A DNA stretch of 40,432 nucleotides. It comes from Gemmatales bacterium (GTDB lineage Bacteria; Planctomycetota; Planctomycetia; Gemmatales; HRBIN36). Both the position numbers and the translations under genes were made by a program. Shown here one piece after another: positions 9,242 through 13,607 of the stretch (positions are counted from its first letter, which is position 1; each line of letters begins with the position of its first letter). The stretch lies in NCBI GenBank assembly GCA_025055835.1, contig JANWWR010000155.1, positions 1-40,432 of the forward strand. Direction: 5' to 3'. Under the pieces are notes generated by a model. It saw nothing but the letters and a program-made list of their open reading frames with translations. It was not told the DNA's origin and ran no database searches.

Positions 9242-9820
9242 ATGCGATTGTGGCTGGCGTTCGTGATCGGGGCGGGGCTGTGCTGGGGCACCTATGTGCC
9301 GCTGATTGCGTTTGGCGGCAAGAGTTTGAGCGACGGTTCGCCGGGCATCGCCAACCGCTTCGCCGCGATTTTGTGTGTCGGCGGGGCGTACTTCGTTCTG
9401 GGTGTGCTGTTTCCGCTGGCGTGGTTTCTGCTCAATGGCGGGATGGGCAATGCCCGTTTCAGTCTCAACGGCGTGCTGTTCTCCAGTCTGGCGGGAGCGG
9501 CGGGGGCCTTGGGAGCCATCTGCGTGGTCTTTGCCACCTCCTTCGCCGAGGTGAAGGACCGCATCTACATCGCACCGTTGATCTTCGCGTTGGCCCCGAT
9601 CATCAACGTGCTGGTCAGCCTGATCTGGCATCCCACCAGCGAATCCGCGTTCCACATCGCTTTGCCGTCCGAATGGCCCGGTTGGAAGCTCCTCGTCGGC
9701 ATCTTGCTCGCTGGCATCGGTGCCGGGCTGGTTCTCTATGCCAAGGAAGAGGCTGAGGCGAAGGCGGTCAAACCCCCACCCGCCCGGACCTCTACGGAGA
9801 AACCGTCGGCCTCCTCATGA
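9242..9820 (+). CDS. Small polytopic membrane protein, EamA/sugar-porter-like
   Basis: A 192-residue hydrophobic protein with about five membrane segments (near residues 4-23, 40-65, 76-98, 108-128 and 148-168) and a charged, Pro-rich cytosolic tail. The opening LCWGTYVPLIAFGGKSL and the segment spacing resemble one half of EamA/DMT or glucose/ribose-porter-type transporters. It is shorter than a complete DMT carrier of about 300 residues, so it would have to dimerise if it transports. The start is chosen at the ATG following GGGGGAAG; a longer frame from 9200 lacks an SD. TATACT at 9194-9199 may be its -10 box. It ends convergent with the S1 gene across 44 bases. Substrate unknown. Confidence 0.8.
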   Translation: MRLWLAFVIGAGLCWGTYVPLIAFGGKSLSDGSPGIANRFAAILCVGGAYFVLGVLFPLAWFLLNGGMGNARFSLNGVLFSSLAGAAGALGAICVVFATSFAEVKDRIYIAPLIFALAPIINVLVSLIWHPTSESAFHIALPSEWPGWKLLVGILLAGIGAGLVLYAKEEAEAKAVKPPPARTSTEKPSASS

Positions 9821-9864
9821 CCCAGGGCCTTGTCAGAAGAGGTTGGCTCATCGGGTCAGCAGAC

Positions 9865-11151
9865 TTAGCCGAGACCGCCCTTGAGCGGTTTCTTCAAGTG
9901 AGGCGGAGTGCCTTTGCGCTGCTTCGGTGGCTTCTGCGGCTGCTCGGAGGGCGGAGCTTCGGTCGCCGCCTTGAGCGACAGCGAGATCCGTTTCTGGGTC
10001 GGATCAACCTTCAGGACGCGAACCTGAACTTCCTGACCGGCATGGACGACGTCCGCGGGCCGACGGACGTGTTGATGCGAAAGTTCGGAGACGTGAACCA
10101 GACCTTCGATTCCCGGTTCAAGTTCGACGAAAGCCCCGAAATCCACCAAACGGGTGACTTTGCCCGTGACCAGGCTGCCGGGCGGGAAGCGGCTTTCCAG
10201 CGCGGCCCAGGGGTCTTCCTGGAGTTGCTTCAGGCCGAGGCTGATTTTCCGGGTGTTCGGGTCGATCTTGAGGATTTTGACCTGCACGGTCTGGCCAACC
10301 TGCACGACTTGCTCGGGCTTCTCCACGCGATGCCAGGAAAGGTCGGAGACGTGAATCATGCCGTCTACGCCGCCCAGATCGACAAACGCGCCGTAGTCGC
10401 GGATGCTGCGGACGGTGCCGGTGCGGACCTGTCCTTCAGCCAGTTCGGCCCAGAGACGTTCCTTCGCTTCAGCCCGCTCCTTTTCCAGAAGTGCCCGGCG
10501 GCTGACGACGAGATTGCGTTCCGCGGGATTGACATCCGTGACGATGCAGTTGATCCGTTGGTTAACGAAAGCTTGCAGATCCTCGACGCGGTTCAGGTCC
10601 ACCTGGCTGGCCGGCAGAAAACCGCGGATGCCGTTGACCACCACTTCCAGGCCGCCCTTGTTGACGGCGGTGACGCGGGCTTCGACGACCTGCCCCTTGG
10701 ACACGGTGGACCAGTCCACGGCTTCGGCATAGCCAACGCGGGCGCACAACTGAAGTCCGTTATTCCGGTCGTAGCCGGTGATAATGACGTCCACTTCCGT
10801 GTTGATCGGCGGTCTGCCGTCGGGGAAATCCGGGAAGTGCGCGCGGGGAACGACACCTTGGGTGCGAGCCCCGTAGTCCACAAAGACGTCATCACCATGC
10901 CAGGCGACGACCCGGGCCTTCTTCGGTCCGGTGTCGGGCGGACCGTGTTTGCGTTTCTTCTTGCCTCCGCCTTCGCCGTGAAGCGTCTTGACATCCATGC
11001 CAGCCATCGCTTCCTCAAGCTGCTTTTCGATCTCGGCGTCGAAGTCGCGGCGAGTCGGCTTGGCCGGGGTTTCTGCGGAAGCGGGTGGAGAGGGTTCCGC
11101 AGCGGTCGGCGAGGAGTTCTCGGGCATTTCGGTCATGGTCGGCTCGGTCAT
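9865..11151 (-). CDS. rpsA: S1-domain RNA-binding protein (ribosomal protein S1-like)
   Basis: A 428-residue protein. It has an acidic, Pro-rich leader (residues 1-40), a basic hinge (GGGKKKRKH) and four S1 OB-fold repeats at about 80-140, 150-220, 235-305 and 317-388, followed by a basic tail (KQRKGTPPHLKKPLK). The last two repeats are the most canonical (DYGAFVDLGGVDGMIHVSDLSW and DFGAFVELEPGIEGLVHVSELS, each shown here in part). This matches the four- to six-repeat bacterial S1 proteins that help mRNA bind the ribosome. Four repeats is short for S1, so a second S1-type protein may exist elsewhere. The start is the ATG with AAGGA eight bases upstream; a TTG 21 bases earlier is less likely. 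It is third in a run after the Sua5-YwlE fusion and rpiB. Confidence 0.88.
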   Translation of the reverse strand: MTEPTMTEMPENSSPTAAEPSPPASAETPAKPTRRDFDAEIEKQLEEAMAGMDVKTLHGEGGGKKKRKHGPPDTGPKKARVVAWHGDDVFVDYGARTQGVVPRAHFPDFPDGRPPINTEVDVIITGYDRNNGLQLCARVGYAEAVDWSTVSKGQVVEARVTAVNKGGLEVVVNGIRGFLPASQVDLNRVEDLQAFVNQRINCIVTDVNPAERNLVVSRRALLEKERAEAKERLWAELAEGQVRTGTVRSIRDYGAFVDLGGVDGMIHVSDLSWHRVEKPEQVVQVGQTVQVKILKIDPNTRKISLGLKQLQEDPWAALESRFPPGSLVTGKVTRLVDFGAFVELEPGIEGLVHVSELSHQHVRRPADVVHAGQEVQVRVLKVDPTQKRISLSLKAATEAPPSEQPQKPPKQRKGTPPHLKKPLKGGLG

Positions 11152-11190
11152 CGCTGGCGTCCTTCGCAACAAGCTCGAGCAGATTCCCCA

Positions 11191-11655
11191 TCAGCCGGAC
11201 GAACGACAGCGGGCATAGCGCTGCTCGAACTGCATGATCTTCTCGACTCGCCGGGCGTGACGGCCACCTTCGAACTCGGTTTCCAGCCAGATGCGGATCA
11301 TGCGGTCGATGACTTCATCGCCGAGCAGATCGGCGGAGAGGCACAGGACGTTGGCGTCGTTGTGGCGTCGGCTCATCTCGGCAGTAATGCTGTCGTGGCA
11401 CAGGGCGGCCCGCACTCCCGGCACCTTGTTGGCTGCGATGCACATACCGATCCCCGTGCCGCAGATCAGAATGCCGCGGTCCAGCCGGCCACTGCTGACC
11501 GCCTGGGCCACTTCGAAGGCGAAATCCGGATAATCCGACGACGCCTCCGAATGCGCTCCCAGGTCTACCACCTCATGCCCGGCGCGCTGAAGCATCGGCA
11601 CGACGCGGCGCTTCACGTCGTAGCCGCGATGATCGCATCCGATCCCGATTTTCAT
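11191..11655 (-). CDS. rpiB: Ribose-5-phosphate isomerase B
   Basis: A 154-residue RpiB/LacAB-type isomerase interconverting ribose 5-phosphate and ribulose 5-phosphate in the pentose phosphate pathway. The N-terminus GIGCDHRGYDVK holds the phosphate-binding DHRG. The catalytic Cys lies in ILICGTGIGMCIAANK (C65), followed by RAALCHDSITAEMSRRHNDANVL with the active-site histidine region. Length is typical. The gene sits 60 bases after the Sua5-YwlE fusion gene and 39 bases before the S1 gene on the same strand. The Sua5, YwlE and RpiB order matches the ywlC-ywlE-ywlF (rpiB) neighbourhood I know from Bacillus. Confidence 0.95.
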   Translation of the reverse strand: MKIGIGCDHRGYDVKRRVVPMLQRAGHEVVDLGAHSEASSDYPDFAFEVAQAVSSGRLDRGILICGTGIGMCIAANKVPGVRAALCHDSITAEMSRRHNDANVLCLSADLLGDEVIDRMIRIWLETEFEGGRHARRVEKIMQFEQRYARCRSSG

Positions 11656-11715
11656 GGCGAGTCCACAGATCAGTTCACTTTGGCCGTTTGCGATACGGCT
11701 AAAGCCCAGCCTATC

Positions 11716-12825
11716 CTAACCGAGCAGTTGGGGCAAGCGGGACCGCAAACAGCTTTCAATCTGCTCGGCACAGCGCTCATAACGCTCCCGGTCGCCGCCC
11801 ACCGGATCTTCGATGTCGCTGCCGTCCGGACACAACAGCTCGATCTTCGGCCCGTCGGTGAAATTCAGTTCCTCCAACGCGGCCAGATGGCTGCGAGTCA
11901 TGGCGAACACGTAATCTGCCTGCAAAATAAGGCGGTCGGTCAGAGTGCGGGTCGCATGTCGAGACAAATCCGCTCCCCGCGCCTGGGCCACTGCCACGGC
12001 TTCCTCGGTGGCCGGCGCACCCGGCAAGGCCCCAAGACCCGCCGAACGCACCAGGAAGCCCTTTTTGGAAAGCTCCTCGGGCGCGCAACCCAGACGCTCC
12101 GCCAGCATCTTCTTGCACAGCGTCTCCGCCAAGGGACTGCGACAGGTATTTCCCGTGCAGACAAAGAGGATCATCGTGCCGGTCAACTGGGCCAGGGTGT
12201 CAGCGGAAACGACACCTTCCCGCAGCATTTTCCACTGGCCGTCTTCGATCATGACGACGCTCGACGGCTTGCCATAGCGGGTCGGTCCCGAGTCGATAAC
12301 CAGCGGAATCGCTTCACCCAGAGCCTCGACGACCTGCTGCCCCGTGACGGCATCCGGCTCCCCGCTCCGATTGGCGCTGGTCAAAACGACCGGTCTTCCC
12401 AGCATGTCAATTACCGCGAGAATGGCTTCATGAGCAGGAATGCGAATGCCCAGCGTACCTTTGCCGCAAACGTAGCGATGCACTTCCGCGGGCAGCCTGC
12501 TGACGTCGAAGCCCCCGGCGAAGACCAGCGTAAGCGGTCCGGGCCAGCAGCGGCGGCTGAGCCGACGAGCCAGAAGGCTTGGATGCGGCACCCACTGCGG
12601 CAGATCGAGGGGATCGGACAGGGCCAGGGCCATCGGCTTGTCTTCCGGTCGGCCCTTGCAGTGGACCAGACGTTCGACGGCCTCCGGCGAACCCGCATCC
12701 GCCGCCAGACCGTACACCGTCTCCGTGGGAAAGGCGACAACCTGCCCGGCCCGCAACGTCTCGACGGCCTCGTGAACGACTGCCATCGGATCCGGTTCCT
12801 TGAGCCAATCCAGCACGCGCGGCAT
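11716..12825 (-). CDS. Fusion of Sua5/TsaC threonylcarbamoyl-AMP synthase and YwlE-type phosphatase
   Basis: A 369-residue fusion. Residues 1 to about 210 are a YrdC/Sua5 domain (PTETVYGL at 33-40, KGRPEDKP at 57-64, then SANRSGEPD), which makes threonylcarbamoyl-AMP for the t6A37 base of ANN-decoding tRNAs. From about residue 218 a complete low-molecular-weight phosphatase follows. Its P-loop is CTGNTCRSPLAE (nucleophile Cys about 223, Arg about 229) and its catalytic DP loop is DIEDPVGGD. The Thr five residues after TG (about 227) is the residue that, in Bacillus YwlE, favours phosphoarginine over phosphotyrosine. The phosphatase starts at an in-frame ATG that could be a former gene start. 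The frame is uninterrupted, so this is a true fusion unless the sequence has an error. Start SD is weak. Confidence 0.92.
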   Translation of the reverse strand: MPRVLDWLKEPDPMAVVHEAVETLRAGQVVAFPTETVYGLAADAGSPEAVERLVHCKGRPEDKPMALALSDPLDLPQWVPHPSLLARRLSRRCWPGPLTLVFAGGFDVSRLPAEVHRYVCGKGTLGIRIPAHEAILAVIDMLGRPVVLTSANRSGEPDAVTGQQVVEALGEAIPLVIDSGPTRYGKPSSVVMIEDGQWKMLREGVVSADTLAQLTGTMILFVCTGNTCRSPLAETLCKKMLAERLGCAPEELSKKGFLVRSAGLGALPGAPATEEAVAVAQARGADLSRHATRTLTDRLILQADYVFAMTRSHLAALEELNFTDGPKIELLCPDGSDIEDPVGGDRERYERCAEQIESCLRSRLPQLLG

Positions 12826-12881
12826 AGATGTTCTTCGCTTGTTGTTTCGAGTCCCGACGGTGCCGCGAACCTCGCAGCTTC

Positions 12882-13607
12882 ATGACTCCCGCATCGGAAC
12901 CCTCTGATGAACTACGGAAAGTCGAACCCTTCGGCGATCAAGGGGCGTTGGTCACGTTTGCTCGTGAGGAGGACGCCCTCCGCTTCGCCGCTGCCTGTCG
13001 GCAGATCTCCTGGAACTGGCTCGTCGATGTCGTCTGTGCCTACTTCAGCGTCGCCGTCTTTCACGATCCGCAACGCATAGCCCTTGGCGACGTCGTGAAT
13101 CTGCTCCGGGAACTGCCGTTATCCCAGGCAGGTTTTCGCGGTCGGCTCCACGAAATCCCTTGCTGTTATGAAATGCAGCTCGATATGGATCGCATCAGCC
13201 GGTTCACGGGTCTAAGTGCCGACGAAATCATCGCTTGCCACTCAGCCGCCGAATACAGGGTGTATGCCATTGGCTTCTGTCCCGGTTTTCCCTACCTGGG
13301 CTATCTCGATGATCGGTTGTCCGGCGTGCCTCGCCTGGAGCGGCCGCGACTTCGGGTTGAACCAGGCAGCGTGGCGGTGACGGGCCGACAGACCGGCATC
13401 TATCCGCTGCCTCGGCCCGGCGGGTGGAACGTCCTGGGTAGAACTCCGCTGGTCCTCGTGGACCTGGCCGACAACTTCTTTCCGATCCAGGTCGGCGACC
13501 GGGTTCGCTTCCGCCGCATAGACGAGGGCGAGTATCGCCGACTGCTCGGCGAACGCCTGCCGATCAGCGAACCGCCGTCTCAGGAATCTGCGGAAAATCA
13601 GGCGTGA
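12882..13607 (+). CDS. pxpB: 5-oxoprolinase subunit B (KipI-like)
   Basis: A 241-residue PxpB/KipI-family protein, the subunit that with PxpA and PxpC makes the ATP-dependent 5-oxoprolinase. Family marks are the opening VEPFGDQGALVTF, then IPCCYEM with the following helix, the GFCPGFPYLGYLDDRL loop, VEPGSVAVTGRQTGIYPLPRPGGWNVLG and the closing VGDRVRF. No pxpA or pxpC is adjacent, which is unusual. I chose the ATG at 12882, where family homology begins; an in-frame ATG at 12828 would leave only two bases to the divergent fusion gene. No clear SD is visible for either. The stop overlaps the ispH 3' end by 10 bases. Confidence 0.9.
   Translation: MTPASEPSDELRKVEPFGDQGALVTFAREEDALRFAAACRQISWNWLVDVVCAYFSVAVFHDPQRIALGDVVNLLRELPLSQAGFRGRLHEIPCCYEMQLDMDRISRFTGLSADEIIACHSAAEYRVYAIGFCPGFPYLGYLDDRLSGVPRLERPRLRVEPGSVAVTGRQTGIYPLPRPGGWNVLGRTPLVLVDLADNFFPIQVGDRVRFRRIDEGEYRRLLGERLPISEPPSQESAENQA

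Follow-up and report, generated by a model that had tools for sequence, protein, structure and literature searches.

A TsaC domain fused to a YwlE-like phosphatase in Planctomycetota, with decay of the TsaC half in several lineages

The fusion gene and its TsaC half

The window, a stretch of 40,432 nucleotides from a Gemmatales bacterium, contains on its minus strand a single uninterrupted open reading frame of 369 amino acids that carries both a TsaC-type domain and a low-molecular-weight (LMW) phosphatase domain (Table 1). The two Pfam domains, Sua5_yciO_yrdC and LMWPc, are separated by a gap of about 14 residues. One continuous frame joining tRNA t6A synthesis to a phosphatase, as proposed by the sequence-only reading, is thus confirmed. 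The AlphaFold2 model of the protein, based on an alignment of 24 sequences, has mean pLDDT 96.1 and pTM 0.88, and in it the linker is mostly one short helix leading into the first phosphatase strand. An origin of the fusion by frameshift, sequencing error or assembly join is ruled out, since the single-frame fusion recurs in 154 Planctomycetota proteins, the copy in the window included.

Table 1. Features of the fusion gene and its downstream neighbour (positions in the window)
Feature	Position	Strand	Basis
TsaC-YwlE-like fusion protein, 369 aa	11716..12825	-	ORF listing, Pfam, NCBIfam, AlphaFold2 model
TsaC/YrdC domain, residues 23-204	12214..12759	-	Pfam PF01300, E 1.1e-47; TIGR00057, 162 bits (cut-off 123)
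KxR motif K57-G58-R59	12649..12657	-	Signature per PMC3223725, PMC9654439
SxN motif S150-A151-N152	12370..12378	-	Both S150 and N152 without variation in 82 fusions selected as intact
Short linker without SUA5 domain, residues 205-218; helix 208-214 in model	12172..12213	-	Pfam and model
LMW phosphatase domain, YwlE-like, residues 219-361	11743..12171	-	Pfam PF01451, E 3.2e-28; solved-structure relatives YwlE
P-loop C223-T-G-N-T227-C-R229	12139..12159	-	Thr/Ile rule from PMC8001253
General acid D340-P341	11803..11808	-	Invariant in 130 of 130 fusions
rpiB, 60 bp downstream of the fusion	11191..11655	-	Pfam, NCBIfam; also follows the fusion gene, in the same orientation, at 98 of the 141 loci whose flank was long enough

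The next gene on the minus strand is rpiB, as had been stated. On the other side lies a divergent pxpB-like gene, whose listed start at 12828 is 2 bp from the start of the fusion. Its translation probably begins further downstream, at an ATG close to 12879, which would leave space for a shared divergent promoter (12826-12878). An antisense frame of 1022 amino acids (9817-12885, plus strand) covers the S1, rpiB and fusion genes and is probably a by-product of high GC content.

The N-terminal half scores 162.3 bits with TIGR00057, the threonylcarbamoyl-adenylate synthase equivalog (cut-off 123.2). It retains the motif PTETVYG and, in K57-G-R59 and S150-A-N152, the complete KxR/SxN tetrad, a signature that tells working YrdC/TsaC proteins from YciO (PMC3223725; PMC9654439). 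The SUA5 C-terminal domain (PF03481) was not found in the protein by Pfam, and the protein is thus not of the two-domain Sua5 form. The earlier label "Sua5/TsaC" holds for the TsaC-type domain; the SUA5 domain of Bacillus YwlC is missing, with the phosphatase in its place. The fusion is the only match to TIGR00057 above the cut-off in its genome, and hence the only TsaC candidate there. The other matches are two weak halves below the cut-off on one 922-aa frame, as expected of HypF, to judge by its size. The sequence evidence suggests that the TsaC half is a threonylcarbamoyl-AMP (TC-AMP) synthase, probably the only such enzyme of the cell.

The phosphatase half and the arginine kinase

The C-terminal half contains the P-loop CTGNTCRSP and the pair D340-P341, that is, both the Cys-x5-Arg motif and the general-acid aspartate. 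Among LMW phosphatases its best relatives of solved structure are Bacillus YwlE. The residues C223, R229, S230, D340 and P341 are invariant in all 130 fusions compared. The threonine at the YwlE position of the P-loop, pointed out from the sequence alone, is indeed there, at residue 227. In YwlE/PtpB the corresponding Thr11 directs the enzyme to phosphoarginine, and replacing it by isoleucine redirects the activity to aryl phosphate (PMC8001253). Position 227 is Thr in 122 and Ser in 16 of the 154 fusions, that is, Thr/Ser in 138; the other 16 have Leu (8), Ile (3), Arg (3), Met (1) or Val (1). Among the 14 stand-alone LMWPc proteins scored in Planctomycetota, Ile is found in 12 and Leu in one; the remaining one, encoded beside rpiB, has Thr.

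We also observed that fusions of family f61 (e.g. L118, L131, L105) have the P-loop C-x-G-N-T-D-R-S, with Asp in place of the second Cys. The second P-loop cysteine of LMW phosphatases takes part in redox control.

A predicted arginine kinase, which the sequence-only reading suggested looking for, is present in the genome. Its McsB scores 452.6 bits with NF002194 (cut-off 385), and its best solved relatives are McsB proteins, although the Asp in the PEERD motif of the Geobacillus protein is matched in the alignment by Asn. Directly upstream of mcsB two short McsA-like genes with UVR motifs stand in tandem (L001:297-1351); Bacillus has one mcsA gene. McsB is encoded in 280 of 294 Planctomycetota genomes (151 of the 155 good-quality ones) and in all 12 further genomes checked, which have either the fusion, a YwlE-type domain on its own or TsaC in unfused form, among them Omnitrophota, Aerophobota and a Firmicute. 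As McsB is nearly universal in the phylum, comparing genomes with and without it cannot show what Thr227 means and was dropped as uninformative, the absences being few and mostly in incomplete MAGs. In family f45 McsB is present and no LMWPc protein was found in several near-complete genomes (e.g. G088, G217), and thus a YwlE partner is not obligatory for McsB.

The AAA_lid_9 domain, used to search for ClpC/ClpB, had no match in the genome of the window, which may be a gap of the assembly (94.9% complete, 221 contigs); in the same search the other 23 members of the class each had two or more such proteins. The Clp_N search was blind as a test for ClpC, as B. subtilis also failed it.

One possibility is that Thr227 is incidental and that this half acts on phosphotyrosine like an ordinary LMW phosphatase, or is an enzyme similar to arsenate reductase. 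Indeed, most annotations in the LMWPc family are of phosphotyrosine phosphatases, the low-scoring NCBIfam matches of this half include Wzb and arsC, and fused copies with Ile, Leu, Val, Met or Arg at position 227 exist. Thr or Ser at the equivalent position also occurs in arsenate reductases, and thus these residues are no proof of phosphoarginine specificity. The only other LMWPc protein of the genome (C35, P-loop CTGNSCRSQ) has Ser there, and its nearest models are those of arsenate reductases (arsC_pI258), below their cut-offs. However, the arsC models score far under their cut-offs on the phosphatase half of the fusion, the predominance of Thr/Ser in fused copies contrasts with Ile in most stand-alone phosphatases, and both the structural relationship to YwlE and the nearly universal McsB argue against an ordinary phosphatase. 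We therefore consider this reading rather unlikely. The claim that the threonine marks phosphoarginine specificity stands only in part: it occupies the YwlE position in a genome with McsB, but 16 of the 154 fused copies lack Thr/Ser, and most of their genomes still encode McsB. Taken together, the sequence comparisons indicate a YwlE-type enzyme that is probably a protein-arginine phosphatase.

Spread of the fusion and loss of the TsaC motifs

The fusion protein used as a query matches 280 of 294 Planctomycetota genomes, many along almost the full length. The 154 proteins with both domains in one frame were verified in the flanks of Planctomycetota loci. In a scan of named genomes the fusion was seen, among the matches listed, in Pirellulaceae, Phycisphaerae, Sedimentisphaerales and other Planctomycetota, and beyond the phylum in at least five Omnitrophota genomes and at least one Aerophobetes genome (a fragment at a contig end). 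Thus the relatives, which the sequence-only reading proposed to check, do carry the fusion, and the possibility that it is peculiar to this organism is rejected. In Candidatus Fermentithermobacillus (a Firmicute, L249) a Sua5 including the SUA5 domain is joined to a YwlE-like domain in a protein of 536 amino acids. In some relatives a Thr-type phosphatase adjoins rpiB and no TsaC was found in the flank examined (G242/L156, L253); L150/L156 and L253 are cited as cases in which the phosphatase lacks a neighbouring TsaC part. The tree of the phosphatase domain, built on only 160 columns and with numerous weakly supported forks, is compatible with one or several origins of the fusion.

The SxN motif is lost in 27 of the 154 fusions, often together with KxR and parts of PTETVYG, whereas the phosphatase half is intact. 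These are all fusions of family f2 examined and members of f3, f30, f33, f47, f79, f91 and others. Only SxN loss was counted as decay, since some apparent losses of KxR (KGERG, KNDRD, KGDRG) look like shifts by one residue. A protein with a long frame (L091/G018) has an intact SxN motif and stands outside the SxN-lost set. For one decayed protein (L211) a folded structure is nonetheless predicted, with mean pLDDT 90.8.

A second strong TsaC/Sua5 is encoded elsewhere in 26 of the 27 genomes with SxN lost, compared to 10 of the other 127 (among the matches listed, about 152 bits and above); six of these 10 have lost KxR. None of 13 rechecked genomes without a listed second TsaC had another match above the cut-off. 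All 16 second copies that were read have both KxR and SxN, and the two scanned with Pfam (L182, L190) contain the SUA5 domain. The exception is G274 (family f3), where SxN is lost and our recheck found no second TsaC. The association between SxN loss and a second Sua5 has Fisher p 3e-20 in genomes that are related. On the phosphatase tree SxN changes 10 times, giving 6 supported independent contrasts, about 4 of which agree with the expectation while almost none contradict it, with median p 0.125. Thus, with kinship taken into account, the association is not independently significant.

These losses bear on the earlier suggestion that the fusion reflects a functional link. With the phosphatase intact in all 27 decayed fusions, and another, stand-alone Sua5 in 26 of the genomes, TsaC activity is not needed for the role of the phosphatase. 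The two halves can thus be separated, and as evidence for a circuit between t6A and phosphoarginine the fusion is weak.

Interpretation and comparison with known systems

The explanation that we favour, and consider fairly likely, is that of a two-enzyme protein, fused from neighbouring genes, whose activities are independent. The N-terminal TsaC domain would make TC-AMP for tRNA t6A, and the C-terminal YwlE-type phosphatase would probably reverse the phosphorylation of protein arginines by McsA/McsB, the kinase whose genes lie in another part of the genome. Adjacent genes in a ywlC-ywlE-rpiB-like order are the most likely source of the fusion, and we infer that it is kept mainly for co-expression and stability. 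The activities would run independently; in lineages with a full-length Sua5 the TsaC half would decay to a folded pseudo-enzyme, while the phosphatase is retained.

Another possibility is a regulatory link, in which the TsaC domain, as a sensor of ATP, threonine, bicarbonate or TC-AMP, would control how active the arginine phosphatase is and thus couple translation capacity to protein quality control. It is consistent with the retention of the fusion throughout the phylum and in Omnitrophota and Aerophobota, with its other form in the Firmicute L249, with a TsaC domain that stays attached and is predicted to fold after its catalytic residues are lost, and with the short linker and confident two-domain model. 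However, co-expression and inertia explain the same facts, Thr-type phosphatases occur beside rpiB without TsaC in the examined flank (G242/L156, L253), and decayed forms have often lost both KxR and SxN. Since co-expression accounts for the data as well as a sensor does, the argument for a functional link is weakened, and we regard such regulation as improbable. The same low probability applies to the TsaC domain, active or decayed, being a built-in ligand sensor of the arginine phosphatase and a pseudo-enzyme regulator in several lineages; if it were, t6A supply or ATP/threonine status would be coupled to the erasure of the degradation marks set by McsB.

In the literature that we found, protein-arginine phosphorylation is described in Gram-positive bacteria and mycobacteria. 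With the kinase McsB spread through Planctomycetota and present in genomes of Omnitrophota and Aerophobota, and with most of these Planctomycetota having a YwlE-like domain joined to an enzyme of a universal tRNA modification, arginine phosphorylation outside Gram-positive bacteria becomes directly testable. In addition, one half of this conserved fusion has decayed repeatedly in genomes with a second copy of its activity, which clearly warns against inferring a functional link from fusion alone. No published description of a TsaC/Sua5-phosphatase fusion was found in the open literature searched, although domain-architecture lists of UniProt or InterPro may well contain it. The parts belong to known families; no description of their combination, of how widely it occurs or of the recurring pseudo-TsaC state was found in the literature searched.

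The phosphatase half shares with YwlE/PtpB of Bacillus, Geobacillus and Staphylococcus the LMW-phosphatase fold, the P-loop CTGNTCRSP with Thr and the DPxGG motif, at 32% identity to Lysinibacillus YwlE and 32-37% in structure matches. Unlike these proteins, it is joined to TsaC, and a minority of its relatives have neither Thr nor Ser. With the TsaC/YrdC threonylcarbamoyl-AMP synthases the fusion shares a single YrdC domain with KxR/SxN and a TIGR00057 score above the cut-off, but it bears a C-terminal phosphatase, and several related lineages have a decayed TsaC part. Sua5 (Bacillus YwlC) is likewise a TsaC domain followed by a second domain, which in the fusion is a phosphatase instead of SUA5. 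The protein L249 of Candidatus Fermentithermobacillus has the same two predicted activities in one frame, with the P-loop CSGNTCRSP; unlike the fusion in the window, it keeps SUA5 between the TsaC and phosphatase domains, and thus probably represents a separate fusion event. Finally, a TsaC domain is also built into the larger enzymes TsaN (PDB 8ide; TsaD-TsaC-SUA5-TcdA), HypF and TobZ. However, in these the partners of TsaC act in the same reaction, and none of them is a phosphatase.
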